From the NCBI GenBank assembly GCA_963576725.1, contig OY755247.1:18944957-19008956 (forward strand): DNA of 64,000 nt, written 5' to 3'. A program made the position numbers and the translations under genes. Numbering within the stretch: position 1 is the stretch's first letter; every line of letters starts with the position of its first letter. The notes beneath the pieces were generated by a model, which was given only the letters and a program-made list of their open reading frames with translations, was not told the origin of the DNA and searched no databases. Below, one piece after another: positions 1,028-61,241 of the stretch. This DNA comes from Azorinus chamasolen. Taxonomy: Eukaryota; Mollusca; Bivalvia; Cardiida; Solecurtidae.

Positions 1028-1357
1028 CAGTAAAACCTCTCTATAACGGCCAGTAAATTACATAAAATATTTTGTGTTAACCCTTTCCCTAATATAAACG
1101 TGTTTTCACGCATCTGCAAACAGAGTAGACCCAGATCAGACGGCTCCTATAGGAGCCGTCTGATCAGGGTCTGCTCTGTTTGCTTATGGAATTTGATAGA
1201 TCTGTGTCTTTACTTTCTAACATGGCTACAATGTTCTACCTTCCATATTTCATTATAACTATTTTGTCCATGAATATTCAGTAGGTATTGAAATTTTGTA
1301 ATAAACTTAGAACAGGGAGAGGGTTAAAGGCGTGTGGTTGCTTAAAGCAAGGTGAAA
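1028..1357 (-). mobile_element. P1 MITE interrupted by T1
   Basis: The left TIR CAGTAAAACCTCTCTATAACG leads to ATTTTGTG, is interrupted at TTAA, and resumes at 1328 with GGTTGCTTAAAGCAAGG. The rest of the hairpin is lost. The intact site in the copy at 18278 reads GTGTTAAAGGC, which proves the host sequence. Confidence 0.75.
1077..1327 (+). mobile_element. T1 MITE (piggyBac-like), near-consensus
   Basis: TTAA lies at both ends (1077-1080, 1324-1327) with inverted ends CCCTTTCCCT and AGGGAGAGGG. The hairpin at about 1117-1182 has arms GCAAACAGAGTAGACCCAG and apex GCTCCTATAGGAGC (1143-1156). The hairpin sits off-centre, followed by a unique tail of about 130 bp. Its TTAA interrupts a P1 element, so the target duplication is directly visible. 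Confidence 0.85.
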
Positions 1358-1995
1358 GTTCGCCATATGTTTACAATGACCTTTGTGAAAGGTAACAGTT
1401 AGGCCAGTACCGGTACAGTAAAAACTCTCTTCAACCACAGCAAAAAAAAATTTCAACAAAAGGTATTAAACCTTTACTTCACACATATGCAATGAAAACA
1501 AATCCTTGCTAAAAAGTAGATACTGATCTGTTTTTATCATGATGCAATTGTTCGTATATGACTATTCACCCGGTGACGTGCTAAGACTGATTTGGAAATT
1601 ATAAATACAATACAGAAACTACAAAATGACTTCTTCATTCCTTCAAGCCGGACTTATTCAAGGTTTGCCTCTATTCAATTCAACAATTCATACATTTCAT
1701 TTCGGACATACACAAATAGTTCTCCTTACACCAACAGACGCTCTAATATCAAATGCGGCAAACGTGCGTCATTACTTTCACACAGCCGCATCTAAGTGTG
1801 AAAAGCTGAGGGGGACATTTGAATAGTAACGTTTGTGTCAGTATTGGTTTAGTTATGTGGCCTACCTCCACACAACGACCACAAACATCCAACTATGACT
1901 CATTTTAACGCCTTTACAAACAAACAGAGTAAACCCAGATCTGACGGTTCATGTACGACGGTCTGCCTTGATTCCCTAGTCATTAGATAAGTTAT
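1358..1995. other. Interval with decayed MITE fragments
   Basis: A lone P-type end (ACAGTAAAAACTCTC, about 1414) and a T1-like hairpin remnant near 1915-1965 can be seen. Short ORFs here have no recognisable features. Confidence 0.4.
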
Positions 1996-2224
1996 TTAAC
2001 CCATTCCCTCATATTGACGACATTTGACGACTCTGTAAAAGTCACCTTGTGAAACCATTGTGATAAATAGAGCATTTGCTCCTATGGGAGCAAATGCTCT
2101 ATTTATCACAATTGTTTGAAACTACAAGATTCTAAAATTTTCCTTTTCTTTAGTAAATTATCCTTTTTGGTAGATTTATTCAAAGAGGTTGGATCTAAAT
2201 ATAGCCTATGACGTAATGGGTTAA
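1996..2224 (+). mobile_element. T2 MITE (piggyBac-like)
   Basis: TTAA at both ends; ends CCCATTCCCTCATATTGACG and TAATGGG. The hairpin GTGATAAATAGAGCATTTGC is mirrored around apex GCTCCTATGGGAGC. The tail contains TTCCTTTTCTTTAGT and GGATCTAAATATAG. Confidence 0.82.
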
Positions 2225-2300
2225 CGCCTTTGCGGACCGAGTAGACCGATATCTCTTGTAGGAGCCTTTTGATCAGGGTATTCTCTTGTTGTAGTCGTAC
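2221..2300 (+). mobile_element. T1-like fragment sharing TTAA with T2
   Basis: It starts at the same TTAA that ends the T2 copy, then GCCTTTGCGGACCGAGTAGACC and a decayed hairpin ending GATCAGGGTATTCTC. It is an example of an end-to-end TTAA chain. Confidence 0.5.
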
Positions 2301-2484
2301 GTGTAGTTGCAGTCGTCGGCGTGCAAAAACTTTAATGTAGCTCATTACTCGAAAAGAATAAGAGGTATCAACATGAAACGTCATAGGTGGATAGACCTCA
2401 TTGAGGAAAAGGTCCCTATATAAGAACCATAACTCTTGATTTCAAAGTTTTGGAGTTATGTCCCTTTATTTTCCCTGATACAAA

Positions 2485-2600
2485 AGGGATTTCGCGTCTT
2501 TGCAAATAGAGTAGATCAAGATCAGACGGCTCCTAGCCCTGCTTGCTTGTGAAATAACAATAAAGCTGACTCTTACAATTTCTTCCAATACCAAAATGCT
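2485..2600 (+). mobile_element. T1b fragment
   Basis: CGCGTCTTTGCAAATAGAG, a one-sided hairpin arm GATCAGACGGCTCC, then a tail GCTGACTCTTACAATTTC. The right hairpin arm is mostly deleted. Confidence 0.5.
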
Positions 2601-2835: not shown

Positions 2836-2940
2836 CTATTGTCGGGTGTCAAACAGCTTGGATCCTGATGAGACGCCGAGTCACTCGGCGTCTCATCTGG
2901 ATCCAAGCTGTTTGCAAATGCGAGTTAGCTCAAGCACAAG
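2836..2940. repeat. T4 hairpin
   Basis: Near-perfect inverted arms CAAACAGCTTGGATCC and GGATCCAAGCTGTTTG around apex GCCGAGTCACTCGGC. Element ends are not clear. Confidence 0.7.
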
Positions 2941-3024: not shown

Positions 3025-3274
3025 TTAACCATTCGCTTGCTGAATTTTAAAATACATTTCTCCTTCTTTACCCATGTCCTGTTGTATAATTACACTTATC
3101 TTCACTGCGTACACGTATTTCGCTGTGCAATCACTGCTGTGGAGTGCACTGGTTGCACAATCAACTTGTAAATAGTGCAGACCCTGATGAGACAGCTCCT
3201 CCAGGAGCTGTCTCATCTGGGTCTTCACTATTTACAGATAGGTATATTGACGTGAATAGCAAGCGAAGGGTTAA
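3025..3274 (-). mobile_element. T5 MITE (TTAA-flanked)
   Basis: TTAA ends; inverted termini CCATTCGCTTGC and GCAAGCGAAGGG. The hairpin has arms GTAAATAGTGCAGACCC and apex AGCTCCTCCAGGAGCT. Very similar to the copy at 4391-4640. Confidence 0.82.
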
Positions 3275-3836: not shown

Positions 3837-4045
3837 TTAACCCTTCACCCGCAAAGCACGACTTGACTAACAAGCGTCAAACAGCTTGGAACCCGATGAG
3901 ACGCCGAGTAACTCGGCGTCTCATCGAGATCCAAGCTGTTTGACACTCGGTCAGTAGTTTCTCAAAAGCTTGAATGACTCGGAAATAGGCAAAATTACAC
4001 CAGATCCAAATATGCGGGGATTTATTTTACAACGGGGTCAAAATA
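3837..4045 (+). mobile_element. T4 MITE
   Basis: Starts TTAACCCTTCACCCGC; hairpin arms CAAACAGCTTGGAACCC and GAGATCCAAGCTGTTTG around GCCGAGTAACTCGGC. The tail includes CACCAGATCCAAATATGC. The right end is decayed and approximate. Confidence 0.65.
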
Positions 4046-4390: not shown

Positions 4391-4640
4391 TTAACCCTTC
4401 TCTTGCTGAATTTTAAAATACATTTCTCCTTCTTTACCCATGTCCTGTTGTATAATTACATATATCTTAACTGTGTACAAGTATTTCGCTGTGCAATCAC
4501 TGCTGTGAAGTGCACTGGTTGCACAATCAACTTGTAAATAGTGCAGACCCTGATGAGACAGCTCCTGCAGGAGCTGTCTAATCTGGGTCTTCACTATTTA
4601 CAGGTAGGTATATTGACGTGATTAGCAAGCGAAGGGTTAA
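4391..4640 (-). mobile_element. T5 MITE, second copy
   Basis: TTAA at 4391-4394 and 4637-4640. Almost the same sequence as 3025-3274, with apex AGCTCCTGCAGGAGCT. Few differences imply recent spread. Confidence 0.83.
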
Positions 4641-5755: not shown

Positions 5756-5963
5756 TTAACACTTTACATGTAGAGACGCCTTTTCGTATCTTTGCAAACA
5801 GTGTAGACCGAGATCAGACAAATCACAGAGGAGCCGTCAGATCAGATTCCGCTCTGTTTGCTTATGAGATTACAGATATTTTTTCATGGTGAATTCCCTT
5901 GTTCATGATGCCGTTATACAAATGCATATATAATGAATATCCTTGATGAAATTATTTTTACCT
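5756..5963 (+). mobile_element. T1b MITE, right end lost
   Basis: TTAACACTTTACATG start, hairpin arms GCAAACAGTGTAGACCG and CGCTCTGTTTGC, tail TTCATGATGCCGTTATA. The element runs into G. Confidence 0.6.
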
Positions 5964-5964
5964 G

Positions 5965-6142
5965 GGTCCATGCTTATAAAACTTTTAGTTGAGTCTGAGT
6001 TCGTTCTCAAGCTTTTGATTGGTTAGATTTGAGCCGGAGGCTCAAATCTGACCAATCAAAAGCTTGAGAACTCAAATCTGACCAATCAAAAGCTTGATAA
6101 CGAAACTCAGACTCAACTAAAAGCTTTATAAGCATGGACCCA
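5965..6142. repeat. G long inverted repeat
   Basis: Ends TGGGTCCATGCTTATAAA and TTTATAAGCATGGACCCA. The arms contain AGTTGAGTCTGAG and repeats of TTTGATTGGTCAGATTTG. It forms a hairpin about 80 bp long, without coding capacity. One arm carries an extra unit. Confidence 0.8.
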
Positions 6143-6149
6143 GAATATT

Positions 6150-6690
6150 AAAAAATAACTTATTGAGGTGTCTTTTGACACCTTTGCAAACAAAATAAAC
6201 CGAGACCACGTGTCTCCTATAGGAGCCAGCGGAGCAGTGTCTGCTCTGTTTGCTCATTGAATTACAGTTGAACTTCGATATCTCGAACTCGGATAACTCG
6301 AACTTCGGGATAATTCGAACTAAAACTTCAGTCCTTCTAAAACTTACAATGCAGAATTGCTCTAAAATGTATTACTACGCATATCTATAGAAACACGTAT
6401 GTCAGCTTAATGCAGGTCTAAAGTAGTGCTGAAAGCTCCCACAGGAGCTTTCAGCATTACTTTAGACCTGCATTAAGCTAATATTTTCAGAAGTTATTTA
6501 AATCAGAAATCGAATAACTCGAACTTCTGTTATCTCGAACTAATTTGTGTTGTCCCTTGAAGTTCGAGATATCGAAGTTCAACTGTACATAGATCTGACT
6601 CTACAGCTTCTGTCACGGCCAACATATCCTATGTTCATACGCCGCGGTAAAATTTCAGGAGCCATCTGGTCTGGGTCTACTCTGTTTGTA
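6150..6690 (+). mobile_element. T1b MITE split by P3
   Basis: Hairpin CTCCTATAGGAGCC at about 6210 and TGCTCTGTTTGCTCAT; the tail resumes after the P3 insertion with AGATCTGACTCTACAGC and TGTCACGGCCAACAT, then a second right hairpin arm GGTCTACTCTGTTTG. Joining the flanks of P3 restores the normal T1b tail. Confidence 0.65.
6265..6585 (+). mobile_element. P3 MITE inserted in T1b
   Basis: Perfect ends CAGTTGAACTTCGATATC and GATATCGAAGTTCAACTG, flanked by TA on both sides. Subterminal AACTCGAACTTC motifs recur. Central hairpin GCTTAATGCAGGTCTAAAGT with apex GCTCCCACAGGAGC. Confidence 0.85.
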
Positions 6691-7022: not shown

Positions 7023-7219
7023 TTAACCCATTCCCTTATATGCTATTTTTAGATACAACCTTTTTGAAAAATCTTCCGAAAAGGAGCATTAACTAGAGAA
7101 AAGGAAAAGTTTAGAATTTTGTGGTTTGAAACCATTGTGATAAATAGAGCATTTGCTCCTATAGGGTCTACTCTGTTTGCAAAGGCTTAGAAAGACGTAT
7201 TTTTGGAGTAAATGGTTAA
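7023..7219 (-). mobile_element. Hybrid T2/T1b MITE, joined near hairpin apex
   Basis: The left half is reversed T2 (TTAACCCATTCCCTTATA, GGAGCATTAACTAGAG, GATAAATAGAGCATTTGC). Right after CTCCTATAGG it becomes the T1b right arm (GTCTACTCTGTTTGCAAAGG) and T1b terminus ending GGAGTAAATGGTTAA. TTAA stands at both ends. Confidence 0.78.
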
Positions 7220-7481
7220 ACACTTTGAATCCTGGGTCCATGCTTATAAAGCTTTTAGTTGAGTCTGAGTTTCGTTCTCAAGCTTTTGATTGGTCAGATT
7301 TGAGTTCTCAAGTTTTTGATTGGTCAGATTTGAGCCAGAGGCTCAAATCTGACCAATCAAAAGCTTGAGAACGTACTCAGACTCAACTAAAAGTTTTATA
7401 AGCATGGACCCAGATGAGAAGCCGAATTACTCAAGCTGTTTGCATACGATAGCACAAGTTTCATGGCAATGAAAGGGTTAA
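7216..7481. mobile_element. T4-like element interrupted by G
   Basis: TTAAACACTTTGAATCC at left; after G come CAGATGAGAAGCCGAATTAC, AAGCTGTTTGC and GAAAGGGTTAA. The left TTAA is shared with the hybrid MITE. Confidence 0.55.
7233..7412. repeat. G long inverted repeat
   Basis: Same ends and arms as 5965-6142 (TGGGTCCATGCTTATAAAG ... CTTATAAGCATGGACCCA reading slightly varied). The duplicated TTTTGATTGGTCAGATTTG unit is here in the left arm rather than the right. Confidence 0.8.
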
Positions 7482-7567: not shown

Positions 7568-8005
7568 CAGTAAAGTTTCACAAATACGCCCAATCTAAAG
7601 AAGTATAACTCTGGATTTTTAAAACAGGTGGTAGCTTAATGCAGGACAAAAGGTATGCATAAAGCTCCTATAGGAGCTTTCTGCATTACTGTTGACCCGC
7701 ATTAACCCATTTGCTCCCACGATCTCATATATAGGATGTAGGCAAACAGTGTAGACTCTGATCAGACACCGCATAATGCGGCGTCTGATCAGAGTCTACA
7801 CTGTTTGCTGATAGGAATTTCAATATAAAACAAAACGAAATTAAAAATTAAAGCCAGGCACCCCTTAGATAAAAAATGGACTAATCCAATATATAATCAT
7901 GGTAGAATCCAATGGGCGCAAATGGGTTGTAAGCAATCATCTGCTTTTACAGAATAATATGTCTATACATGTAGTTATATGGTCGCATTAGCGAGACCCT
8001 ACGGC
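7568..8005 (+). mobile_element. P4 MITE carrying a T3 MITE
   Basis: Left end CAGTAAAGTTTCACAAATACG; hairpin arm GGTGGTAGCTTAATGCAGG, apex GCTCCTATAGGAGC (7664-7677). The right arm is broken at CGCATTAA by T3 and resumes AAGCAATCATCTGC; right TIR near TGGTCGCATTAGCG is decayed. Confidence 0.65.
7702..7931 (+). mobile_element. T3 MITE nested in P4
   Basis: TTAACCCATTTGCTCCCACG to GGCGCAAATGGGTT. Hairpin arms GCAAACAGTGTAGACTCTG and complement, apex GCCGCATAATGCGGC slightly varied (ACCGCATAATGCGGC). The right TTAA has become TTGTAA. Confidence 0.82.
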
Positions 8006-8513: not shown

Positions 8514-8721
8514 TTAACCCTTTCCTCCATAGGCTATTTTTAGACCCAACCTCTTTGAATAAAACTACCCAAAAAGAGGATTAACTACAGAAAAGGAATT
8601 TTTTTAGAATTTTGCAATTCTGAAACCATTGTGATAAATAGAGCATTTGCTCCTTAGGAGTGACTTAAAGTGACTTTTACACAGAGGCGTAGAAAGGTGT
8701 ATTTATGGAGGAAAGGGTTAA
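8514..8721 (-). mobile_element. Hybrid T2 MITE with a T1b terminus
   Basis: A T2 body in reverse (GGCTATTTTTAGACCC, GATAAATAGAGCATTTGC), but the right end is AGAGGCGTAGAAAGGTG then TATTTATGGAGGAAAGGG, the T1b terminus. TTAA at both ends. The same junction is seen at 35738-35988. Confidence 0.75.
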
Positions 8722-9030: not shown

Positions 9031-9442
9031 CAGTTGAACCTGACCTAAGCCGTCATTGATTTATTGAATACTGCAGTCTTAAAAAGCAGATTGTTGCTTA
9101 ATGCAGGGCAAAGGTAATGCAAAAAGCTCCTATCGGAGCTTTTTGCATTACTTCTGACCTGTATTTAGCTGTCACACGCCTTACAGACCCATAATTAGCC
9201 CTCTTTTTGATGGCCGATTAACCCATTCCCTCATATTGACGACTTTTGACGACTCTGTAAAAGTCACTTTTTGAAACCATTGTGACGAATAGAGCATTTG
9301 CTCCTATAGGAGCAAATGCTCTATTTATCACAATGGTTTCAAACTACAAAATTCTAAACTTTTCCTTTTCTCTAGTTAATGCCCCCTTTCGGTAAATTTA
9401 TTCAAAGAGATTTATCTAAAAATAGGCTATGAGGTTCTACTG
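9031..9442 (+). mobile_element. P6 MITE carrying T2
   Basis: Left CAGTTGAACCTGACCTAAGC; hairpin GTTGCTTAATGCAGGGC with apex GCTCCTATCGGAGC; right TIR TGATGGCCGATTAA interrupted by T2, then TTCTACTG. Confidence 0.7.
9218..9435 (+). mobile_element. T2 MITE nested in P6 end
   Basis: TTAACCCATTCCCTCATATT start; hairpin apex GCTCCTATAGGAGC at 9300-9313. The right terminus stops at CTATGAGG and is joined to the P6 end. Confidence 0.75.
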
Positions 9443-11913: not shown

Positions 11914-12102
11914 TACACTTATTTTGTCACACAGTATTATCAATAATGCTTTATTGTCTACTTTCAGTGACAGCGGGAGTGAGAGGAGTGTTCGCGTTTT
12001 CCGCGGGGACCGCTTGCAGGTACTGGTTATTATATGTAATATACTCACTCATGGGCGTACCAAAAGTACCAAAACACAGTGTATGTGTACATTTATAAAA
12101 TA

Positions 12103-12324
12103 CAGTAAAACCTCTCTAAATCGGACGTTCAGTTTAGCCTAAATATCAGTCTTGGAGATAAGGGACAGTTTAATTTAGGGTGAAAGTCATGCAGAAAGCT
12201 CCTCTAATGCAGAAAGCTCCTCTAGGAGCTTTCTGCATGACGTTCACCCTACATTAAGCAGTAACTTGCCTAAACATATCTAAATTATTCTCTACTGTAG
12301 TTCCGGTTTAGAGAGGTTTTACTG
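12103..12324 (+). mobile_element. P2 MITE
   Basis: CAGTAAAACCTCTCTAAATCG to its complement, TA on both sides. Hairpin GGGTGAAAGTCATGCAGAAAG has a small tandem duplication of the apex segment; apex GCTCCTCTAGGAGC. Confidence 0.82.
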
Positions 12325-12365
12325 TACTATTGATACATTACAAAGTTATATACAGGTATGCCATG

Positions 12366-12813: not shown

Positions 12814-13227
12814 CAATAGAACTGGTCTTAAGCGGCAATCAAAACATGTCTTATATTTATGCTGTTAACCCTTTCCCTGTTATATGTTTATTACAAATTT
12901 CAATACCTACTGAGTATTCATGGAAAAAATAGTTATAATGAAATATGGAAGTTAAAATATTGTAGCAATTTTAGGAAGTTAAGAAACAGATCTATCAAAT
13001 TCCAATGGCAAATAGAACAGACCCTGATCAGACGGCTCCTCTAGGAGCCGTCTGATCTGGGTCTACTCTGTTTGCAAATGCGTGAAAACACGTTTATATG
13101 AGGGAAAGGGTTAAAGGTATTGTTTTTGCATTACCTTTGACCTGCATTAATATACTACCTGCATTAATAAACCACACAGACCCAGTATAATACATATTTT
13201 GATGGCCGTTTAAGACACGTTCTATTG
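12814..13227 (-). mobile_element. P6 MITE carrying T1
   Basis: Ends CAATAGAACTGGTCTTAAGC and GTTTAAGACACGTTCTATTG, TA flanks. The hairpin is partly lost; TACCTTTGACCTGCATTAA remains. Confidence 0.75.
12865..13114 (-). mobile_element. T1 MITE nested in P6
   Basis: TTAA at both ends; tail first, hairpin last (GACGGCTCCTCTAGGAGCCG). Close to the T1 consensus, like 1077-1327. Confidence 0.85.
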
Positions 13228-13349: not shown

Positions 13350-13650
13350 TCATAAGCAACCACATGCCTTTATGAATCTTATGTTCAATAAATGAATGGC
13401 AGCTTAACCCATTCCCTCATATTGACGACTTTTGACGACTCTGTAAAAGTCACTTTGTGAAACCATTGTGATAAATAGAGCATTTGCTCCTATAGGAGCA
13501 AATGCTCTATTTATCACAATGATTTCAAACTACAAAATTCTAAAATTTTCCTTTTCTCTAGTTAATGCTCCTTGTTGGTATATTTATTTTAAGAGGTAGG
13601 ATCTAAAAATAGCCTATGAGGTAATGGGTTAAGGCATGTTCTACTTTATA
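13350..13650 (-). mobile_element. Half P6 element carrying T2
   Basis: Read in reverse: AGTAGAACATGCC, TTAA, GCTGCCATTCATTTATTG, then AGGCATGTGGTTGC, where it stops at the hairpin. T2 lies in the TTAA of the terminal repeat. Confidence 0.6.
13404..13632 (+). mobile_element. T2 MITE just upstream of the coiled-coil exon
   Basis: TTAA ends; complete T2 with apex GCTCCTATAGGAGC. The right end is about 70 bp before the splice acceptor at 13701-13702, so it would lie at the 3' end of the preceding intron. Confidence 0.85.
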
Positions 13651-13702
13651 ACAAGTATATTGGGGACACACATTCATTAAACGTTTATGCTGTATCTTTC
13701 AG

Positions 13703-15412
13703 ATGCATCTTCTCCAAGTCGAGGAAAAATATCGAAGTCAAGCCTTGTATCAGCAACTACACGCATTTGAAGAAAAGGTTCTTCTCTCGTTTGACCAATT
13801 CAACGTTGACGTGTTCTACCGAATGTTTCAGAATTTGACGAAAAGGACTGTCGTTGATGTGCGTAAAGTTAAAACGGTCGGTCATTTACGTAAGTGCTTT
13901 GACGACTTACGGAATGTAATCAAATGTAAATTACGTCACCGACATCTATCGCAAACGAAAGAAGAACACACTCTGGTGAAATATTTCACTTGGTTCTTTC
14001 AATTTCTGGATTACCTGAGAGAGCTGAGAGATAACTTTGTTGCAAGGATCTATTCAACATTATTCAGATATTTTTACCATGTCGGTTACGACTCGCCAGA
14101 TCGGGAAGATACTCTTGATTCGGCTATTTCCGCCCCGAGTGTTCTTTCGTTCGGTAGTATTGATAGTGGATACGCAGAACTAGTTCGACGCTCTCCGTCA
14201 CTGACGGGTGAAGAACTGGCATTGATTTCGGCAAGGTCAATGTCAGACTTTAAAGACACAACTATTGTACGGAGAGACTTTGTGACGAGAAACGCCCTCC
14301 AACTCTTAGGTGAACAATTCCGTGACATTAAGCGACTCTACGACTATTCGGAGATAGAGCAGCTTGCCAAAAGACTCTGCAATCTAAAAGAAAGAACTGA
14401 TCATCTGTTAGATGCAGAGAAAAGCTTAGACAAGGATTTGCTTTGCCAGGATAGTGAGCGTTTCGTCTTCCATCTAAAAGTGCGCGATATGGGACCAGAA
14501 AATTTGGCACGATTAGTTCCAGACATTTTGATTAAATTTCAGAAAGCCACATGGCTTGGGAGACGTTGGTTAGAAAGAGACGATGAAAAGACAAAAGATT
14601 TGAACGTGAAATTGAGCAAATTAACTTCTCTGGAAAATGAAATGAACAAGAGATTAGCGACTCTTGTAAAAGAAATTGAACAGCAAGAGAAAGATCTTGA
14701 CTCACATTCTAATATATTAAACACGTTGCTTGTCCGTGAAGATCGTTCAAACGACCTGTCGTATTGTATCTTCGACATGCAGAAGAAGTCAAATGGTTTG
14801 AGAGAGCAAAGGAAGGAGCTGAACAAAGAACGAAAAGAGTTGTGTTGTAAAATGACACAGGCAGCAAATGATAACGACAAGGCGACATACAAGCAGTTAC
14901 GACCACTGTACCAAAGAAACAAACTAAAACGCTTTGCGCTTGAAAGGCAACTGGCCACGGTAGACTTTCACCTTCATTTATCAGAGTCAGATATGGAGAC
15001 AGAACTCGACATGAAACCAAGCATTATACAGAACACAGATGACACACAGGATAAATGCGAGGAAATTGAGCAGTGTCTTGAAAAGGCTAAGAAGGAGAGA
15101 AATGCGATACAGACAGCCCTAGAACCCATTCACATGGACCGGTTACTTGTACAGGAGCAAATTCAGAGGAAGCGAAAGCAAAAGTTGGCATCAAGCTTAA
15201 ATGCCGAGTTTGTCAGCTCAAAGTCATTGAGTGATGAAAACGTTGTAGACCTTAGTGCGGAATTTCTAGGTCATTCTCAAATCGGGGATCCATTATCTAT
15301 TTTCATGACGTCACTTCCGGAGAGTACTCATTTATCACCAATACACACACCAATAAAGTCGATAGATTCACCAAACACACGTGCTACGGAACTTGTCGCC
15401 TCAGAATGGTGA
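13703..15412 (+). CDS. Coiled-coil protein, large (probably last) coding exon
   Basis: A 569-codon open frame with even, protein-like composition, by far the longest on the + strand. The family is not recognised. Residues 1-130 look helical and basic (KRTVVDVRKVKTVGHLRKCF, RNVIKCKLRHRH). Around 130-175 is a Ser-rich linker. From about residue 280 to 500 there is a charged heptad-like region (LENEMNKRLATLVKEIEQQE; LREQRKELNKERKEL; EEIEQCLEKAKKERN), most likely coiled coil. The C-terminus is Ser/Thr/Pro-rich and ends in ASEW. A pyrimidine tract and AG (CTGTATCTTTCAG) directly precede the ATG, and an in-frame TAA lies about 20 bp further upstream, so this is an exon start: the Met may be the start codon or an internal residue. 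Coding exons may lie upstream. A MITE begins at the stop codon. Confidence 0.85.
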   Translation: MHLLQVEEKYRSQALYQQLHAFEEKVLLSFDQFNVDVFYRMFQNLTKRTVVDVRKVKTVGHLRKCFDDLRNVIKCKLRHRHLSQTKEEHTLVKYFTWFFQFLDYLRELRDNFVARIYSTLFRYFYHVGYDSPDREDTLDSAISAPSVLSFGSIDSGYAELVRRSPSLTGEELALISARSMSDFKDTTIVRRDFVTRNALQLLGEQFRDIKRLYDYSEIEQLAKRLCNLKERTDHLLDAEKSLDKDLLCQDSERFVFHLKVRDMGPENLARLVPDILIKFQKATWLGRRWLERDDEKTKDLNVKLSKLTSLENEMNKRLATLVKEIEQQEKDLDSHSNILNTLLVREDRSNDLSYCIFDMQKKSNGLREQRKELNKERKELCCKMTQAANDNDKATYKQLRPLYQRNKLKRFALERQLATVDFHLHLSESDMETELDMKPSIIQNTDDTQDKCEEIEQCLEKAKKERNAIQTALEPIHMDRLLVQEQIQRKRKQKLASSLNAEFVSSKSLSDENVVDLSAEFLGHSQIGDPLSIFMTSLPESTHLSPIHTPIKSIDSPNTRATELVASEW

Positions 15413-17211: not shown

Positions 17212-17447
17212 CATGAATATTCATGCAAGCAATAGTGACGTGATGAAAATCAACTAGATTAATTAATTATAATAGCACATGGACACGGGAAGTTTTGTCC
17301 ATGGCAGAAATTACAGAATCATATATATGTCATACTATAAGCAAACAGAGTAGACCCGGATCAGACGGCTCCTATAGGAGCCGTCTGATCTGGGTCTACT
17401 CTGTTTGCAAGGGTGTAGAAATGCGTATTTATGGAGTAAAGGGTTAA
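17212..17447 (-). mobile_element. T1b MITE with perfect hairpin
   Basis: The hairpin 17341-17410 is almost perfect (GCAAACAGAGTAGACCCGG and complement, apex GCTCCTATAGGAGC). The tail lies on the left; the end is GGAGTAAAGGGTTAA. Confidence 0.85.
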
Positions 17448-18277: not shown

Positions 18278-18442
18278 GTATTTTGTGTTAAAGGCAGGTG
18301 ACTGCTAAAAGCAAGGTGAAAGTAAAACAGAACGCTCCTATGGGAGCGTCCTGTTTTACTTTCACCTTCCTTTAAGCAGCCACCTGCCCTACATACCAAC
18401 TAATTAACACAATTTAGTGGCCATTATAGAGAGGTTTAACTG
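18278..18442 (-). mobile_element. P1 MITE, left end lost
   Basis: ATTTTGTGTTAAAGGCAGG, hairpin GGTGAAAGTAAAACAGAACG with apex GCTCCTATGGGAGC, right end ATAGAGAGGTTTAACTG with TA. It supplies the uninterrupted GTGTTAAAGGC site used above. Confidence 0.75.
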
Positions 18443-19075: not shown

Positions 19076-19260
19076 TTATCAGATAAAGGTGCGTACTCAA
19101 ATACTAAAATCGTCATTTCTCCACCAAATCTTATGTTGTGACCATTCTTTAGAATCGTCTCGAAGAGACGATTCTAAAGAGTGATCACAGCATAGGGGTT
19201 GGTGGAGAAATAAAGAATTTATTCTTGGAAATGTTTTAATTTACGTATTTTATCTAGACT
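19076..19260. repeat. H long inverted repeat
   Basis: CAGATAAAGGTGCGTAC; arms TTTCTCCACCAAATCTTATG and complement, apex AATCGTCTCGAAGAGACGATT; right side TTTTAATTTACGTATTTTATC. Five or more related copies lie in the window. Confidence 0.75.
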
Positions 19261-20811: not shown

Positions 20812-21217
20812 CTGAGACTCATGCATATTCCGTGTATTATCGTCGGTAATCTTCGAATACATTTCCAAATGTATAAGAATGCGCTATAAGAATACAGTAA
20901 ATCCCATCTAATGCGACCAGCAAAAAGGGGCATACTTCACAGTGTCAAAGGCAGGTGGTAGCTTAATACAGGACGAAAGTTATGCAGAAAGCTCCTGTAG
21001 GAGCTTTCTGCATAACTTTTGTCCTGCATTAAGCAACCACCTGCTTATAAAGACAACCATGTTTATTCATTAAGTGGTCGCATCGGAGGGGTTTTATTGT
21101 ACAATCCTCGAGGAACATGATTATTACCGGCTTTTGGTTCGCTATTTTTTGGCACAGCGTATTACGAGCAATCCCGATAAACACGCCGGAATTTAATCGA
21201 GTCTCAGGTCAAATTGG
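20812..21217. mobile_element. TIR element nested in T1b, containing P4
   Basis: Ends CCAATTTGACCTGAGACTC and GAGTCTCAGGTCAAATTGG. Subterminal parts are partly inverted too. A G-run of about 15 follows the right end. Class unknown. Confidence 0.65.
20895..21099 (+). mobile_element. P4 MITE, third nesting level
   Basis: CAGTAAATCCCATCTAATGCG to GGAGGGGTTTTATTG, TA flanks. Long hairpin GGTGGTAGCTTAATACAGG with apex GCTCCTGTAGGAGC. Confidence 0.82.
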
Positions 21218-21541: not shown

Positions 21542-21936
21542 CAATAAAGTCTCGCTTATACGACCCACTCAAAAAAGTATAAGTCTCTCTTTTTAGAACA
21601 GGTGGTAGTTCAATGCAAGACAAAAAACCTTTTGCCACGCATTAACCCATTTGCTCCCACGAGCCCATATATGGGACATAGGCAAGCAGTGTAGACACTG
21701 ATCAGACGCCGCATAATGCGGCGTCTGATTAGAGTCTACACTGTTTGCTGATAGGAATTGTAATATAAAACGAAACGAAATTGAAAATTTATGCCAGACA
21801 TCCCTTAAATAAAAAATGGACTAATCCAATATATACACATGGAAGAATCCACTGGGCGCAAATTGGTTAATCAACCATCTTCTTTTACAGACTCCTATGT
21901 TTATAAATTATGTGGTTGTAGTAGCAAACTTTATTG
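21542..21936. mobile_element. P4 MITE abutting the GPCR stop codon, carrying T3
   Basis: CAATAAAGTCTCGCTTATACG at left and GCAAACTTTATTG at right, TA on both sides (right TA 21937-21938). The hairpin is mostly lost. The TA directly touches the stop codon of the - strand receptor gene. On the gene strand the terminal repeat reads TACAATAAAG, which gives an AATAAA a few bases after the stop. Confidence 0.75.
21642..21870 (+). mobile_element. T3 MITE nested in P4
   Basis: TTAACCCATTTGCTCCCACG to CGCAAATTGGTTAA; hairpin apex GCCGCATAATGCGGC. It sits in the same TTAA of P4 as the T3 copy at 7702. Confidence 0.83.
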
Positions 21937-23628: not shown

Positions 23629-23857
23629 TTAACCCTTTCCCTCATAATGACGGCTTTTGACGACTGTGTAAAAGTCACTTTGTGAAACCATTGTGATAAA
23701 TAGAGCATTTGCTCATATAGGAGCAAATGCTTTATTTATCGCAATGGTTTCAAACTACAAAATTCTAAAAATTTCCTTTTCTCTAGTTAATGCTCATTTT
23801 CTGTAGATTTATTCGAAGAGGTTGGATCTAAATATAGCCTATTAGGAAATGGGTTAA
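23629..23857 (+). mobile_element. T2 MITE beside the GPCR splice acceptor
   Basis: TTAACCCTTTCCCTCATAATG to GGAAATGGGTTAA with hairpin GCTCATATAGGAGC. It lies about 25 bp on the intron side of the putative acceptor. Confidence 0.83.
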
Positions 23858-34966: not shown

Positions 34967-35200
34967 TTAACCCTTTACCGTATAGGCTATTTTTAGATTA
35001 CTTTGAATAAATCTACCGAAAAGGATCATTAACTAGAGAAAAGGAAAATTTTAGAATTTTGTAGTTTGAAACCATTGTGATAAATAGAGCATTTGCTCCT
35101 AAGGGAGCAAGTGCTCTATTTATCATAATGGTAATAAATGGTTTCACAAAGTGACTTTTACTGAGTTGTCAAAAGTCGTCAATATGCGGGAAAGGGTTAA
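34967..35200 (-). mobile_element. T2 MITE
   Basis: TTAACCCTTTACCGTATAGG to CGGGAAAGGGTTAA; hairpin apex GCTCCTAAGGGAGC. AATGGTAATAAATGGTTTC shows a small duplication in the right arm. Confidence 0.82.
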
Positions 35201-35737: not shown

Positions 35738-35988
35738 TTAACCCTTTCCTACATAAATACGCCTTTCTACGCCTCTGTTAAAGTAACTTTTGGAAACTAC
35801 ATGTATTGTGATAAATAGAGCATTAATTGCTCCTTGGGAACAAAATTAATGCTCTATTTTACAATTTATCACAATGGTTTCAGAATTACAAAATTCTAAA
35901 AAAATTCTTTTCTCTAGTTGATGCTCCTTTTCGGTAGATTTATTCAAGGAGGTTGGATCTAAAAATAGCCTATGAGGGAATGGGTTAA
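35738..35988 (+). mobile_element. Hybrid T2 MITE with a T1b terminus
   Basis: Left end TTAACCCTTTCCTACATAAA then TACGCCTTTCTACGCC is T1b; from CTGTTAAAGTAAC on it is T2. Right end TGAGGGAATGGGTTAA. The same junction occurs at 8514-8721 in reverse. Confidence 0.77.
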
Positions 35989-43030: not shown

Positions 43031-43308
43031 GCATGCCTGTATGTTACCTGTTTGTATGTCTCCAGGAGATTCTTCCGTTTTCGTACTATTTGATTAGATT
43101 GGTTGTAAAATGATGGCAGATTTTCACCAACTTAACAAGTGGTGTTTAGACTTCATATCTAAAACGAAATTGATGGTCTGGATCTACATTCTGCACATGG
43201 GTATTACCTGGTTGGTACTTTTCTCAATAGATGGTCTCATGTAACGCTTTACCTGGTGCATATTCATGTAACAAAATAATGAATGCATGGATATAAATTA
43301 GCTAAATA

Positions 43309-43512
43309 CAGTAAAACCTCGATTATCCGAATTTTCGGTATAGAAGAATTTAGACCCTTTTAGGCAGGTGGCTGCTTAATGCATGGTGAATGTCATGCAG
43401 GAAGCTCCTAGAGGAGCTTTCTGCATGACGTTCACCATGCATTAAGCTGCCACCTGTCTTACAGGTCGATAATAATACGTATTTTAGTGTTCGAATAATC
43501 GAAGTTTTACTT
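43309..43512 (+). mobile_element. P7 MITE (pogo/Tigger-like)
   Basis: CAGTAAAACCTCGATTATCCG and TCGAATAATCGAAGTTTTAC. Hairpin GGTGGCTGCTTAATGCATGG with apex GCTCCTAGAGGAGC. The right ACTG is mutated. Confidence 0.78.
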
Positions 43513-44395: not shown

Positions 44396-44870
44396 TCAAG
44401 TGCATACTAACATTTGGCCCGTAACCTGAATAAAACATCATCAACAACACACACACATTCCTATTTTGTAATGTTATGTCTTGTTCACAGGGAGCGGTAT
44501 GTGATTTTGTAAATGATTCCCCAGTTGAAAATACGCCTCCTAGATAATTTAATGATAATTTCGGTTTTCTTGGCATCGAACGTGAAGTCATATATCTGTT
44601 CTGTCTACCAATATCCAGTGTTTACAATCTTCTGTCTACCACTATCAAGTGTTTACAGTAAGTTCCAGTTTTCACAATAGTCTTGTAAACAGTCAAGGCC
44701 AGATGGGTGACTGTCCTCTGATTAAGAAAACAAAAGTACATCGTGTGCATGGAGACAAAGCATAATTTCATTATATATTTGTCTTTAACATATTAACTTC
44801 CTCTAAATCATTAAGTAGCATAGAAAATGAGCATGCTGAAATACTATCCATTTGAACTACGCCTTATATA

Positions 44871-45075
44871 CAGTAGAACCCCGCTAATGCGACCACTTAA
44901 TGAATAACCATAACTGTCTTTATAAGCAGGTGGTAGCTTAATGCAGGACAAAAGTAATGCAGAAAGCTCCTAGAGGAACTTTCTGCATTTCTTTTGTCCT
45001 GCATTAAGCTACCACCTGCATATAGCACCCATAATTATACCTGTTTTAGGTGGTCGCATTAGCGGGGTTTTACTG
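44871..45075 (+). mobile_element. P4 MITE, intact
   Basis: CAGTAGAACCCCGCTAATGCG to GCATTAGCGGGGTTTTACTG with TA on both sides. Long hairpin AGGTGGTAGCTTAATGCAGG with apex GCTCCTAGAGGAAC. Confidence 0.87.
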
Positions 45076-45087
45076 TACATAATTATA

Positions 45088-48762: not shown

Positions 48763-49000
48763 TGAATCCCCTTTATTCCATGAACGTTAATGATACCATG
48801 AATATTAATTAGATTAACTGTTATAATAGAACAAGGATACTATAAATTTGGCCATAGCAAAAACTGTAGAATCATATGTTTATTATTTCATAAACAAACA
48901 GAGCAGACCCTGATCAGACGGCTCCTAAAGGAGCCGTCTGATCTGGGTCTATTCTGTTTGCAAAGGCGTAAAAAGGCGTATTTATAGAGTAAAGGGTTAA
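48763..49000 (-). mobile_element. T1b MITE
   Basis: CCCCTTTATTCCATGAACG start; hairpin AAACAGAGCAGACCCTG with apex GCTCCTAAAGGAGC; end GAGTAAAGGGTTAA. Confidence 0.8.
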
Positions 49001-50250: not shown

Positions 50251-50256
50251 AACATA

Positions 50257-50618
50257 CAGTGGTCCCTCTCTACAACGACACCCTTTGGGATACGAAGATT
50301 GTATGTGTTGTTCAGAGGGAGTTGTTATAGGGAGGGAAAATCAAACATAATTAGCTTGTTTGCAGATCCCCAGATAAGGTGTATTTCGAGAACTAAAACC
50401 GTTATGCCTCAATCAAACCCTATGTTGTGACCACTCTTTAGAATCGTCACTTTGTGACGATTCTAAAGAGTGGTCACAACATAGGGTTTGATGGAGGCAT
50501 AAAGAAAATACGATGGAAAAAAGTTGTGTCTAGAGCCTTGTTGTTTCGGAAACAGTGACATGCGTTGTTGTAAGGAGGGAATCGTTATTGAGAGGGCCGT
50601 TGTAGGGAGGGAGCACTG
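50257..50618 (+). mobile_element. P5 MITE with an H-like hairpin core
   Basis: CAGTGGTCCCTCTCTACAACG to GGGAGGGAGCACTG, TA flanks. Centre: CTATGTTGTGACCACTCTTT, AGAATCGTCACTTTGTGACG and the mirrored arm, the same hairpin as H. Almost identical to 52980-53340 in reverse. Confidence 0.87.
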
Positions 50619-50689: not shown

Positions 50690-50876
50690 GCAAACAGTTG
50701 GATCCGGATGAGACGCCCAATAAGATCGGCCTCTCGTCCAGATCCAAGCTGTTCGCCACTCGGTCAATAGATTTATAAAACTTGTTAAAATCGGAAGTAG
50801 TAAACACTTGCACCAGATCCAAAATTGAACAGACGTTATGTTTCATATTTTACTCTAGAGTAAGATTTAACCCATT
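50690..50876 (+). mobile_element. T4 MITE, truncated
   Basis: CAAACAGTTGGATCCGGATG with CCAGATCCAAGCTGTTCG; apex altered. Tail GCACCAGATCCAAAATTG runs into T3. Confidence 0.6.
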
Positions 50877-51100
50877 TGCTCCCAGTGGATTCTTTCATGC
50901 CTATATATTGGATTAGTATATCTTTTATCTAAGGGATGTCTGGACTAAATTTTCATTTTTGCTTTGTTTTATATCGAATTTCCTATCAGCAAACAGTGTA
51001 GACTCTGGTCAGATGCCGCTTTATGCGGCGTCTGATCAGAGTCTACATTGTTTGCCTACGTCCCATCCCATATATGGGACCGTGGGAGCAAATGGGTTAA
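50877..51100 (-). mobile_element. T3 MITE, complete
   Basis: TTAA at both ends; TTAACCCATTTGCTCCCAG to GGAGCAAATGGGTTAA. Hairpin GCAAACAGTGTAGACTCTG; apex GCCGCTTTATGCGGC. Confidence 0.85.
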
Positions 51101-52979: not shown

Positions 52980-53340
52980 CAGTGCTCCCTCCCTACAACG
53001 ACCCTCTCAATAACGATTCCCTCCTTACAACAACGCATGTCACTGTTTCCCAAACAACAAGGCCCCAGAAACAACTTTTTCCATCGTATTTTCTTTATGC
53101 CTCTATCAAACCTATGTTGTGACCACTCTTTAGAATCGTCACTTTGTGACGATTCTAAAGAGTGGTCACAACATAGGGTTTGATTGAGGCATAACGGTTT
53201 TAGTTCTCGAAATTCACCTGATCTTGGGGATCTGCAAACAAGCTAATTGTGTTTGATTTTCCCTCCCTATAACAACTCCCTCTGAACAACACATACAATC
53301 TTCGTATCCCAAAGGGTGTCGTTGTAGAGAAGGAACACTG
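52980..53340 (-). mobile_element. P5 MITE, second copy, inside a T2 hairpin
   Basis: CAGTGCTCCCTCCCTACAACG to GAGAAGGAACACTG. The flanking sequence TTGTGATA | TAAATAGAGC is the T2 hairpin stem, so the target was its TA. Confidence 0.87.
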
Positions 53341-54715: not shown

Positions 54716-55810
54716 TTATTTTGTATTGTCAGTAAAAAATGCAGTTTCCCTTCCAACCGGCTTACACGTTAAAAGCGCTTTGATTTCGCCCCGAAACTTT
54801 GTGCTGCTCAACACGTACAGAATAAAGTTTACTGAAGGGTTAATGTAGGAGAGACATACCACTGTAGCAAGCAAACACTCAACCATCCCATTTCTGTATT
54901 CATATTCAGCTTCATCAATACACATAACCTCGTCTGCCCAGGCATGGACCGACTTTTCGCTTGTCAAGAACAGAGAAAGAGGAGTGAGACATATAACAAA
55001 CGTGACATTAAGGAACAATATTAATATCATAATAGATTCTGTACTTCGATGACCTTTCTTATTTCCTCCCGATCCGAGGGTCTTGGATGCTGCTGATTTC
55101 AATTTAACCAGTTTGTACAGAATGATAGTGTTTCCAACGGACAGTATTACAAATGGAATTGCGAAGAGAAATGTGAAGTCTAACCATGGCCATATGTCGA
55201 AATAAAACAACTGGTAATCATCTAGCGCTAGTGGACCGCAAGTAAAACCATACATGTAAACGTAGGTATCTGAAATACCGAAGCCGTACAAAAAATGAGT
55301 ATTTAGTGCAAACAAAACTATACCAATTACGAGACAAGAGATTTGAGAGGTCATCTTTGTGCAAATGCGTTTGTAATGATGAGGAAATACTAAACTTATG
55401 ATTCTCTCAACAGTAATTGCTACTAGAATCCAGGACGAACACTGCGCACTCCAATAGTACAGAAAATGAGAGAGTTTACAGACTACATCGTTGGTTTCCC
55501 TGAAGTTGAACCAAGACATGGTCATGAACCAATCAACGAGATTTCCAATGACCAGAAAAATAGTATCTACGATCGCAAGCATGCCGAGAAACACGGCTGT
55601 TGATGTCATTGTCTGCCGTTGTCTGAAGATTACCACCATCGTCATTATGTTGCCTGGGATGCCAATTAGTAACAATATCGGTGGTAGTATCGTCCAGATC
55701 ATGTTAGCCGCTTTCGATCGTGGACTATTGGACACATCAGGCGGATTGAAGTAAGAACAGTTTTCGAAGATACTCTCATTTAACTCATTTAAACTTGAAT
55801 TGACATCCAT
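54716..55810 (-). CDS. Class A GPCR, paralogue of the 22-kb receptor
   Basis: A 364-residue receptor from the preferred Met (the frame extends 17 codons to 55861, but the paralogue starts at the equivalent of the internal Met). Glycosylation sites N4, N11 and N17. GN at 53-54 (TM1), D82 (TM2), C111-C191 as likely disulphide, ERI at 135-137 instead of DRY, P277 in TM6 without a CWxP Trp, and NPSVNFILY in TM7 (canonical NPxxY-like). Long identical blocks with the first receptor: YYWSAQCSSWILVAITV, LYGFGISDTY, FYFDIWPWLDF. The basic loop after TM5 (GSGGNKKGHRSTES) differs most. The ligand is probably a neuropeptide; unproven. Confidence 0.93.
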   Translation of the reverse strand: MDVNSSLNELNESIFENCSYFNPPDVSNSPRSKAANMIWTILPPILLLIGIPGNIMTMVVIFRQRQTMTSTAVFLGMLAIVDTIFLVIGNLVDWFMTMSWFNFRETNDVVCKLSHFLYYWSAQCSSWILVAITVERIISLVFPHHYKRICTKMTSQISCLVIGIVLFALNTHFLYGFGISDTYVYMYGFTCGPLALDDYQLFYFDIWPWLDFTFLFAIPFVILSVGNTIILYKLVKLKSAASKTLGSGGNKKGHRSTESIMILILFLNVTFVICLTPLSLFLTSEKSVHAWADEVMCIDEAEYEYRNGMVECLLATVVCLSYINPSVNFILYVLSSTKFRGEIKALLTCKPVGRETAFFTDNTK

Positions 55811-56313
55811 ACTTGGCAGATTATCCCGAAATATCAATCTGAAGCGTTTCTCTGCAACCAATAATAAGAATTTTCCAAATGAAAAACGAAAGTCGCCATT
55901 TAAGAGAACTTAGTAACTTAACTATATATTTAACTGATAGTGTCTCCTTAAACGACTGCTCATGTAGACATTATGTAGAATAGGACTCAGGACATCTGTG
56001 GATTTGACATTAAAAATTCAATTGTCAGAAATTTCGAAGGCTAGTAGAGTTCTTTATTTTGAATCGTACCCGGCGTTATTCAAGCTTGAAAGGAACTTGT
56101 GCTGACGACGTTCCGGCCTGGGTCAAGGCTGTTAATTCTGACGGCAGATGTTCCTGACTGAGTTAATGTGTTAATATCAGGCTTTCGTAGTTGTTTTATT
56201 GTGCCATGAAGTATTTTAATAAGAAATGGCCTAGCCGATGCAGCAAGTGGGACATCTTCAGGTCTAAATTGAACTTTTCCGTCGTTAGTTCATCAAAGAT
56301 TGTGTCTTCTCCC
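55811..56313 (-). other. Probable 5' leader of the second GPCR with splice acceptor
   Basis: Matches patches of the first receptor's leader. On the gene strand TATGTATAATTTCAG ends at 56314. Beyond it (56325-56405) the sequence becomes a T1b tail, so the paralogues' similarity stops at this junction. Confidence 0.5.
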
Positions 56314-56324
56314 TGAAATTATAC

Positions 56325-58535: not shown

Positions 58536-58730
58536 ACCTAATTTAATATAAGTATGTTAGAGCTCGCACTTGATGTTACGGAAAGCAGCAACATCATTGG
58601 TTGAAAAGTTAAAAACAAGACAGGGTAAATCCTTAGCAGGCTTAACAATTTTACTGGAGAACAAACAACATTATTTAACTAAAATGGACAAAAAAGTAAT
58701 TCTCAATGATACTATATAACGATAAAATAT
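58536..58730 (+). repeat. Direct repeat, right copy
   Basis: Nearly identical to 56933-57113 apart from the 16-bp difference and a few substitutions. Confidence 0.88.
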
Positions 58731-59207
58731 TTTTGTTTACAAAACTTTGAAATACAAATCGGCAAGAGAAAATCACCTTGTGAAATTTGACCACATATGG
58801 TTAACACATTAGTGTTTATTTGAAAGACAATTATATAAAAAAAACAACTAAACTTTTACAAATTCTTTAAGAGGCCCGGGCAAGTTAAGTTTGGATTTAG
58901 AGAACGTTATTAAAGCAAAACACCAGTTTACAAAAAAATACCAATATGAGCGAACCAACATCAAACATCGTTTTCTCTCTTTTTCTTTTCATATTCCAAA
59001 ATATAATTTGTTAACACACCACACTAGTCATTTACAAAGAAGAATACTTTCCTCATACTGCATGTATAGTGTAGAATAACTTTTAAAGAAAATAGCATCT
59101 GTCAAAAATGGTATTGTTAAAAAAGATTTAAATATGTTCATTCACTCTAACATTGACAAGAAAACACTTACAAAAAATACAAAACGAAGGTGTGGATGTG
59201 AACTTAA

Positions 59208-60490
59208 CCTTTTCATACGCCCACCTAATAAAGGTGGTCGTATATTGTCGTGGCCCTGCCCGTCCGTCCGTTCGTTCGTTCGTCCGTCAACATTTTGTTT
59301 GTCCGCAGTTTTCTCGGAAAACTATTTGACAGATTTTAATGAAACTTCACACAAATGTTTAATACATCAATATCTGAAGCTGAGTTGATTCTGAGGTTCA
59401 TTTGATTTTTCGTTTCAGAGTCATGGCCCTTGTCCTTAAAAAAGAATGCACATACATGCAAATAGTTTGTCCGCCGTTTTCTGGGAAAACTTTTTGAGAG
59501 ATATTAATGAAACTTCACACAACTCTTAAATGCAAAATTAAGATCTGAAGCTGGGTCGATTCTGAGGTTCATTTGATTTGTTGTTTCGGAGTTATGGCCC
59601 TTGTACTTAAAAAATAATGCAAATACATGCAAATAGTTTGTCCGCTGTTTTCTGGGAAAACTATTTGAGAGATATTAATGAAACTTCACACAAATGTTAA
59701 ATACATCAAGAGCTAAAGCTGAGTCGATTCTGAAGTTCATTTGATTCGTTGTTTCGGAGTTACGCCCCTTTCATTAAAAATAATGCAAATATATGCATAT
59801 AGTTTGCCCGCTGTTTTCTGGGAAAACTGATTAACAATTATTAATGAAACTTCACACACATGTTTAATGCATCAAAACCTGAAGCTAAGCTGATTCTGAG
59901 GTTCAATGGATTTGTTGTTTCAGAGTTATGGCCCTTGCACTTAAAAAATAATGCAAATCTGTGCAAATATGTGGATGGCCATAACTTTTTCATTTGAAAT
60001 GATATTTACTTCAATTTTTTTATATGGTTAAACTTTAATATGAATTTTCACATATATTGCGGTGTTTTTAATATGTCATTTTATTCTAAAGTTATGGTCC
60101 TTGAACTTTGTGTGTTCGTTGCTTTCTTTGTCGGTCAACTTTTAGTTTGTCTGTTGTTTTCTGGGAAAACTATTAAAATGATATAAATGAAACTTAACAC
60201 AAATGTTTTAAGCAGCAAAATCTGAAACTGAGTTTATTTTGAGGTTCATTCAGTTTGTCTTTATAGAGTTATGGCCGTTGCACTTTACAAAATTCTGTAA
60301 AAATGAGGATTAGCTGTAACTTTTTTATTTAATAAGGTATTCGCTTCAATTTTTTAAAAAATAGTATCACTTTAATATGGAAATCAAGATCTTAAGCACA
60401 GATTAGAAAATGTCAACACTTTTAAGGTAGGTTGAATCGGAGAAAGTTTGCAAGTGGGCGTATTATGTACCGTATACGGTACTCTTGTTT
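59208..60490 (+). repeat. Tandem array element, unit about 180 bp
   Basis: 5' ATACGCCCACCTAATAAAGG, a CCGTCCGTTCGTTCGTTCG tract, then about six units with GTCCGCTGTTTTCTGGGAAA, AATGAAACTTCACACAAATG, CTGAAGCTGAGTCGATTC and GGAGTTATGGCCCTTG. 3' GTGGGCGTAT complements the 5' ATACGCCCAC. The layout is like the other array elements. Confidence 0.75.
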
Positions 60491-60738
60491 AAATCTATCG
60501 AAATTGACGTTATTTGTTACTTTTTAAACTAATCTAGTCGGTTTTAATTTAGAGAATTTATTAATCGGGTGGAAAACAGCTTGAGAAACAAGAGAGACCA
60601 TTTAACGTATAAGCAAACATGATTAACCTTGATCAATTAGTTCTTACATCAGTTGTCTGATCTTGGTGAAGTCTGTTAACAAATGCATGAAAAAGATGGT
60701 GTTATTCAGTAAATGCAAACTACCGTTTGGGCACGATA

Positions 60739-61241
60739 CAGTGGATATCTCGAACTTTAAAGGACAATACACATTACTTCGAGCTAACGGGGGTCGAGTC
60801 AGACTATTATCTAACATGAAAACTTTCTCGATACGACAGCTTATTGCAGTTGGAAAATAATGCTGAAAGATCCTGTATGAGCTTTCAACATTACTTGCGC
60901 CCTGCATCAGACTGGTGCATGTTTTTACCGATGTGTGCAGTTTTAGATCAATTCTATATTATAAAATTTGGAAGGGACCAAATTTTAACTCAATTTAGAT
61001 CGAAATTCGAGTTATCCTAGTTCGAGATATCAAGGTACAGTAAAACCTCTCTATAACGACCACTAAATTGTGTTAATTAGTTGGTATTTTGGGCAGGTGG
61101 TTGCTTAAAGCAAGGTGAAAGTAAAACAGAACGCTCCTATAGGAGCGTTCTGTTTTACTTTCACCTTGATTTAAGCAGCCACCTGCCATTAACGTAAAAT
61201 ACTTAGTGGTCGTTATAGAAAGGTTTTACTGTACTACTGTA
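60739..61241 (+). mobile_element. P3 MITE, diverged, carrying P1
   Basis: CAGTGGATATCTCGAAC at left; hairpin CAGTTGGAAAATAATGCTG with CCTGTATGAGCTTTCAAC; right TTCGAGATATCAAGG broken by P1. Confidence 0.65.
61038..61231 (+). mobile_element. P1 MITE, near-consensus
   Basis: CAGTAAAACCTCTCTATAACG to ATAGAAAGGTTTTACTG, TA on both sides. Hairpin apex GCTCCTATAGGAGC at 61133-61146; arms nearly perfect. Confidence 0.87.

Follow-up and report, generated by a model that had tools for sequence, protein, structure and literature searches.

Why should transposable elements that differ in target site, in terminal sequence and in stem carry the same few bases at the apex of their hairpins? The question is raised by a 64,000-nucleotide stretch of the Azorinus chamasolen genome (contig OY755247.1, positions 18,944,957 to 19,008,956; hereafter the window, this single 64-kb stretch being the scope of all tip, hairpin and element counts given here), in which miniature inverted-repeat transposable elements (MITEs) form long hairpins topped by the palindrome GCTCC-N4-GGAGC. 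An earlier description made from the letters alone (the sequence-only reading) had placed this tip in many families, some flanked by TTAA (T) and some by TA (P), and had suggested either an exchanged hairpin cassette or selection on the hairpin itself. We find that the tip is indeed shared and that it is separable from the stem beneath it; with somewhat less than even confidence, we propose that the tip is an inherited and exchanged module and that the stems were rewritten by hairpin-primed template switching.

Exact matches to the motif (GCTCCNNNNGGAGC) occur 21 times in the window, against 0.01 expected (100 shuffles, maximum 1), and each of them forms the middle of a MITE hairpin. With the tip excluded from the scoring of the arms, both arms belong to the same stem family at every one of these sites (9 to P, 8 to C or D and 4 to E), at an arm-assignment score threshold of 12 that is lenient, since 5% of random window draws reach 13. 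The four tips for which coordinates had been proposed (1143-1156, 9300-9313, 7664-7677 and 61133-61146) each match the motif exactly. When hairpins were sought independently of the tip, 44 were found; in 24 of these the tip is present with one mismatch or none (a count from the scan list), and in 2 more it is present with an altered loop length. Similarly, profiles restricted to the stem sequence recovered 107 arms reaching the inner end of the stem, and GCTCC with at most one mismatch stands next in 74 of them (P, 26 of 32; C, 30 of 51; E, 18 of 24), where chance predicts 1.6% per arm. These profiles were trained on copies selected by the tip; with the 46 training arms removed, the tip still adjoins 30 of 61 arms, against about 1 expected. 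Because stem-only profiles recover the tip even outside their training arms, the shared tip is real and is no artefact of motif hunting. The sequence-only reading had named two outcomes that would count against it, unrelated apices in consensus sequences and an apex frequency explained by chance; the separately computed window consensus of the tip is GCTCCTATAGGAGC in each of C, E and P, and the counts given above contradict chance.

The nine families of that reading, by comparison, reduce to three independent stems, since the P families are homologous in stem and so are C and D: P, flanked by TA and with CAGT ends, C/D, flanked by TTAA, and E, also flanked by TTAA. The P stem reads GGTGG-nn-GCTTAATGCAGG...ATGCAGAA-AGCTCC in most elements and is common to the P elements; the stem common to T1 and D reads AAACAG or AAATAG...GATCAGAC or GATGAGAC; the third, that of T2, reads AAACCATTGTGATAAATAGAGCATTT. 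The flanks were as first described: TTAA stands at both ends of all 17 listed T-type elements (197 to 251 bp; the list holds only elements with both ends located), and TA-CAGT...A[CT]TG-TA at both ends of 7 of the 12 P elements examined, one or both ends of the other 5 not being found in the TA-CAGT form by the scan. The ends themselves read TTAACCCTTTCCCTCATA in T1, TTAACCCATTCCCTCATA in T2, TTAACCCTTCGCTTGCT in D and TTAACCCATTTGCTCCCA in k; set against CC[C/T]T, the terminal motif is CCCT in T1 and most D ends and CCCA in T2 and k ends. P ends of the form TA-CAGT...ACTG-TA fall into six types (P1, P2, P2b, P3, P4 and P5); of a seventh type, P7, a single end remains. Judged by target sites and ends, at least two transposition types are present, since the T elements are probably piggyBac-like (TTAA) MITEs and the P elements are CAGT-ended TA MITEs, and the target sites make it likely that their transposases differ. 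The P elements are putative MITEs of the Tigger/pogo type, in which TA flanks and CAGT... ends are found. Among seven P elements, mean identity is 0.48 in the ends, 0.74 in the stem and 0.94 in the tip, the tip value being biased because the elements were picked by the tip; stem identity exceeds end identity in 17 of 21 pairs.

The tip is not tied to a particular stem, nor a stem to a particular tip. Four apices are found on stems of the C type: GCTCC-N4-GGAGC (T1, D), CCGCAT-A-ATGCGG (k), GCCGAGT-N-ACTCGGC (q) and GCCACATTGTGTGGC, the last at the end of a bacterial contig described below, where the contig end removes most of one arm; the GCTCC-N4-GGAGC tip, for its part, is present on three stems. 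One element joins two TTAA families within the tip: on the minus strand, the first 56 bases of 7023-7219 are T1b (49 of 56 identical) and the sequence from the tip on is T2, with TTAA at both ends. Ends have also been swapped, since on two T2 bodies the terminal 36 bases match T1b better than T2 (8514-8721, 34 of 36 versus 25 of 36; 35738-35988, 34 of 36 versus 26 of 36). Because a tip-joined chimera, swapped ends and a stem with several tips are all present, exchange of the tip within the TTAA families is supported, and to that extent the exchanged cassette of the sequence-only reading stands; between TTAA and TA families, for which no chimera was found, we can only infer it. Furthermore, the T1a element at 1077-1327 is inserted within a P1 element, adjoining the P1 hairpin arm, and thus T and P hairpins do come side by side.

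How the pairing has changed differs between dispersed copies and families. Of the changes counted in dispersed copies, 80 affect one arm, 2 are complementary double changes and 2 are double changes without complementarity (six E copies, 17 one-armed and no double; twelve C copies, 55 one-armed and all four of the double changes; three P1 copies, 8 one-armed and no double). The tip at first appears better conserved than the stem, GCTCC mismatching at 2% in P copies chosen by the tip versus 12 to 21% for the stem. This we rejected as a selection artefact: the effect is gone when arms are collected by their stems (mismatch in tip versus stem: P, 0.144 versus 0.156; C, 0.267 versus 0.105; E, 0.150 versus 0.042) and reversed in arms outside the training set, which take in arms with lost or other tips (P, 0.314 versus 0.167; C, 0.360 versus 0.117; E, 0.267 versus 0.049). 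Because changes are one-armed and conservation of the tip does not exceed that of the stem, the dispersed copies seem to be decaying neutrally, and selection on individual dispersed hairpins is not supported. Between families the picture is different. In a comparison of ten hairpins of the C, D, k and q types, at least two Watson-Crick types occur at 9 of 25 stem pairs (counted without a shuffled control, and with one type resting on a single hairpin at two of the nine), which indicates that both arms changed together. Pairing is maintained as source elements change, not in dispersed copies. The hairpin selection envisaged by the sequence-only reading is not supported for dispersed copies; pairing kept between families is predicted by template switching and by selection on source elements equally.

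These observations can be accommodated in one model. The 14-bp tip GCTCCTATAGGAGC would be a single inherited module, either passed from one source element to another or retained in place, with the arms on its flanks replaced. A new arm would come to lie beside the tip by recombination or through a template switch; during replication the tip would fold back, GGAGC on GCTCC, prime synthesis and copy the new arm to the other side, so that a single step could yield a near-perfect hairpin with the old tip and a new stem. By itself the 14-bp tip folds as DNA at -3.2 kcal/mol, a level that 13 of 200 shuffles also reach. Transposase would then spread the new source element, whose copies would decay neutrally, and transfer from T to P elements may have been aided by insertion of T into P elements, of which the nested T1a is the one case observed. 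A bolder form of the model, in which the tip is a self-priming seed that crosses DNA-transposon superfamilies and adjacent sequence is copied into a perfect stem in one step, we consider doubtful.

Several results weigh against exchange with fold-back copying. No site within 3 mismatches of the tip pairs a T arm with a P arm, and the only site with arms from different families is the chimera of C and E stems, which as a lone case might simply reflect an ordinary deletion joining two adjacent insertions. Beyond the 2 complementary double changes, homogenisation of the arms is absent from dispersed copies, so that the copying step must be rare or limited to source elements. The model also predicts that deletions cluster in the tip. 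An end in the tip was found for 16 of 23 deletions, these being the gaps of one aligner, with loci whose alignment stops at the tip left uncounted. The excess gives P = 0.00005 under a first null; under a null that keeps one arm intact it gives P = 0.0014 for deletions to 45 bases from the centre and 0.06 for the arm only (0.0006 and 0.05, respectively, in family C alone), and P = 0.08 once the chimera is removed. As P depends on the null, the clustering is suggestive at most, and we dropped it as support.

The principal alternative is that the tip is a selected palindrome, GCTCC-TATA-GGAGC, bound by a dimeric transposase or host factor that raises the transposition of any carrier, so that unrelated MITEs would retain or gain it. 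At 14 bp and with a TATA centre it resembles the palindromes of piggyBat, an analogy that may point to such a site, and it is common to seven P elements with diverged ends, albeit elements picked by the tip. However, k and q hairpins, the k elements among them being TTAA-flanked, bear other tips, a single piggyBac-type protein is unlikely to serve both these and the TA-ended P elements that carry the tip, and in stem-collected arms the tip is no more conserved than the stem, and less so outside the training set. We think a binding site rather unlikely; if there is one, two unrelated transposition systems would use it, which would be surprising in itself. Plain common descent would have P, C and E stem from one hairpin whose arms diverged past recognition while the tip was kept. 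The consensuses of P and C do share four extra bases beyond the tip (TAGGAGC-nn-TCTG) and the T1 ends are related to those of T2 (25 of 36 for the T1b type against the T2 type), but the E stem is unlike C or P by eye, a comparison made without a statistical test, and a tip that is no better kept than the stem within copies leaves its sole survival unexplained, making this an unlikely account.

Selection on the hairpin as an RNA or DNA structure, whether as a source of small RNA, a replication fold or a cruciform, would explain why pairing is maintained between C, D, k and q, and the consensuses do form very strong single-strand folds (E, -37.8 kcal/mol, z -16; C, -35.6 kcal/mol, z -12). What such selection leaves unexplained is the sharing of the tip's sequence, as opposed to its pairing, and the 80 one-armed changes of the dispersed copies against 4 double ones speak against it, so that we judge it quite improbable. 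As for chance or a fortunate choice of examples, nine families had been counted where only three independent cases exist; yet, given a 7-base half-tip, each further stem would match with a probability of about 4^-7 by our own arithmetic, and the tip is recovered both by the tip-free hairpin scan and beside the non-training arms, which makes this scarcely credible. We also considered whether the tip arose from the terminal repeats and set this idea aside: 58 of 60 local alignments of five tips with twelve ends lie above p = 0.05; the two below it, uncorrected, pair the T2 tip with the k end (p = 0.001) and the P tip with the P1 end (p = 0.016). The k end (TTAACCCATTTGCTCC; 7702-7720, 21642-21660, 50867-50885 and 51082-51100) and the T2 tip have ten bases, CATTTGCTCC, in common, a statistically weak match.

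Exchange of the tip with fold-back copying, if it occurs, would provide a testable route for the origin of the internal sequences of MITEs. A MITE hairpin alone would then be no evidence of a selected structure, and MITE families would have to be classed by module and not by whole element. If the tip is a self-priming seed, MITE hairpins would be products of replication folding and not of deletions in a parent transposon.

Coordinates of the TTAA-flanked (T) and TA-flanked (P) elements and hairpins in the window
Feature	Coordinates	Strand	Hairpin	Tip	Remarks
T1a element, TTAA-flanked, 251 bp	1077..1327	+	C-stem, 1116-1183	1143-1156	nested in P1 element
T1a element	12865..13114	-	C-stem, 13008-13075	13035-13048 (GCTCCTCTAGGAGC)	
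T1b C-stem hairpin	17341..17408	-		17368-17381	TTAA end 17447; 1 of 34 positions unpaired
T1b C-stem hairpin	48895..48960	-		48921-48934	TTAA end 49000
D element, TTAA-flanked, CGCTTGCT ends	3025..3274	+	3167-3236	3195-3208	
D element	4391..4640	+	4533-4602	4561-4574	
T2 element, TTAA-flanked, 229 bp	1996..2224	+	E-stem, 2052-2117	2078-2091	
T2 element, left end to hairpin end	9218..9343	+	E-stem, 9270-9343	9300-9313	right end not delimited
T2 element	13404..13632	+	E-stem, 13458-13527	13486-13499	
T2 element	23629..23857	+	23683-23752	1 mismatch	
T2 element	34967..35200	-	35071-35132	35095-35108	
C/E chimeric TTAA element	7023..7219	-			T2 half with E arm plus T1b end; junction in tip, about 7155-7165
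T2 body, T1b-type terminal 36 bp	8514..8721	-			right arm of hairpin lost
T2 body, T1b-type terminal 36 bp	35738..35988	+		altered	
k element, left end to hairpin end	7702..7808	+	C-homologous stem	CCGCATAATGCGG	
Further k element	21642-21870				
Further k element	50867-51100				
q hairpin	2850..2914	+	C-like stem	GCCGAGT-N-ACTCGGC	
Second q hairpin	3876-3944				
P1 element, TA-CAGTAAAACCTCTCTATAACG ends	61036..61233	+	61092-61187	61133-61146	
P1 hairpin	180..275	+		221-234	
P1 hairpin	18293..18388	-		18334-18347	
P2 element, TA-CAGTAGAACCCCGCTAATGCG ends	44869..45077	+	44921-45024	44966-44979, 1 mismatch	
P2-like element	20893..21101	+	20951-21044	20991-21004	
P3 element, CAGTAAAACCTCGATTATCCG end	43307..43512	+	43365-43456	43404-43417	right end mutated
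P4 element, TA-CAGTTGAACTTCGATATCTCG ends	6263..6587	+	6404-6479	6435-6448	
P5 element, TA-CAGTAAAACCTCTCTAAATCGG ends	12101..12326	+		12216-12229	tandem duplication in left arm
P-element hairpin, left end CAGTAAAGTTTCAC at 7568	7636..7705	+		7664-7677	P4 of the sequence-only reading

Outside the set with the shared tip, the window holds another palindromic family (5962-6143, 7232-7413 and 63307-63488) with arms of the CTGGGTCCATGCTTATAAA type and the tip GATTTGAGCC, a family of long hairpins (19105-19221, 50402-50502 and 53111-53177) with the tip TTAGAATCGTCAC or TTAGAATCGTCTC, and, at 27631-27797, a 70-nt inverted repeat that is 93% complementary around a 27-nt spacer. An open frame of 586 aa runs from 13652 to 15412 on the plus strand. 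Two minus-strand frames, 21939-23024 and 54716-55909, look alike by eye; the latter is receptor-like, with 34% identity to a growth hormone secretagogue receptor type 1-like protein of Mercenaria mercenaria, and shows 54% identity to a JGI protein.

Relatives of the elements were sought in other sequence collections and in the literature. Scans of viral contigs found none, and a scan of genome contigs matched a single locus, the C-type stem mentioned above. It lies at positions 1-60, the contig end, of MUIB01000095.1 (our locus L001), from the metagenome-assembled genome (MAG) of Spirochaeta sp. LUC14_002_19_P3, and has the appearance of host sequence attached to a bacterial contig; the MAG presumably comes from a lucinid clam gill. 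No protein relatives of two hairpin translations were found, and the literal tip string did not occur in the literature searched. In the same literature we recognised no MITE precedent besides the coral family discussed next, and others may be in print.

That closest precedent found is the CMITE group of the coral Acropora, where the same general pattern is already known: TTAA families whose terminal repeats differ have in common an internal region conserved better between families than the ends are, and the source of the internal sequences of MITEs was left open (PMC2872659). The seven P elements are alike in that conservation between families is higher in the internal region than at the ends. 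They differ in that the coral region spans 75 bases of elements of about 100 bp and is shared among TTAA elements (PMC2872659), whereas here a 14-bp tip is shared by three stems and by TTAA and TA elements. Homology with CMITE was rejected: the 60-bp CMITE consensus (PMC2872659) has no match in the window (nhmmer, E up to 10), and its local alignments to eight elements give p = 0.03 once (P1, uncorrected) and at least 0.66 in the other seven. Two resemblances to sequences in that report are recorded here as observations. The string TTGCTCCTAT is common to the coral AmiPB1 primer and the T2 tip (p = 0.0015, uncorrected; a lead only), and the T2 ends at 1996-2010, 9218-9232 and 13404-13418 begin CCCATTCCCT, like the AmiPB4 terminal repeat (CCCATTCCCTGCCACA), whose end reads CCCA (PMC2872659).

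Palindromes inside TTAA transposons are known from piggyBac and piggyBat, whose transposases use two cysteine-rich domains to bind palindromes close to the ends; the piggyBat palindromes have an A/T-rich centre, and one lies at bp 107-120 (PMC11707139). The tip is similarly a short palindrome in TTAA transposons and, like that of piggyBat, has an A/T-rich centre, the known palindromes being bound by a transposase dimer (PMC11707139). In contrast to those palindromes, which lie near the ends by a motif for the core domain, the tip stands at the hairpin centre and is shared with TA elements.

A parallel for the copying step comes from the template-switch repair proposed for rRNA hairpins, in which a nascent strand folds at the loop, primes and copies the other arm, rewriting the stem while the loop is kept; four-base loops are enriched among such hairpins (PMC8794818), and homogenisation of arms through template switching is described for yeast in PMC8604942. 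Our model resembles this repair in that hairpin-primed copying creates or corrects a stem and preserves the loop (PMC8794818). The difference is one of setting, the repair being known from RNA genes and yeast coding DNA, and the string 'transpos' being absent from the main text of PMC8794818. By analogy, the exchange of a whole stem beneath a kept tip in MITEs would represent an extension of template-switch repair.

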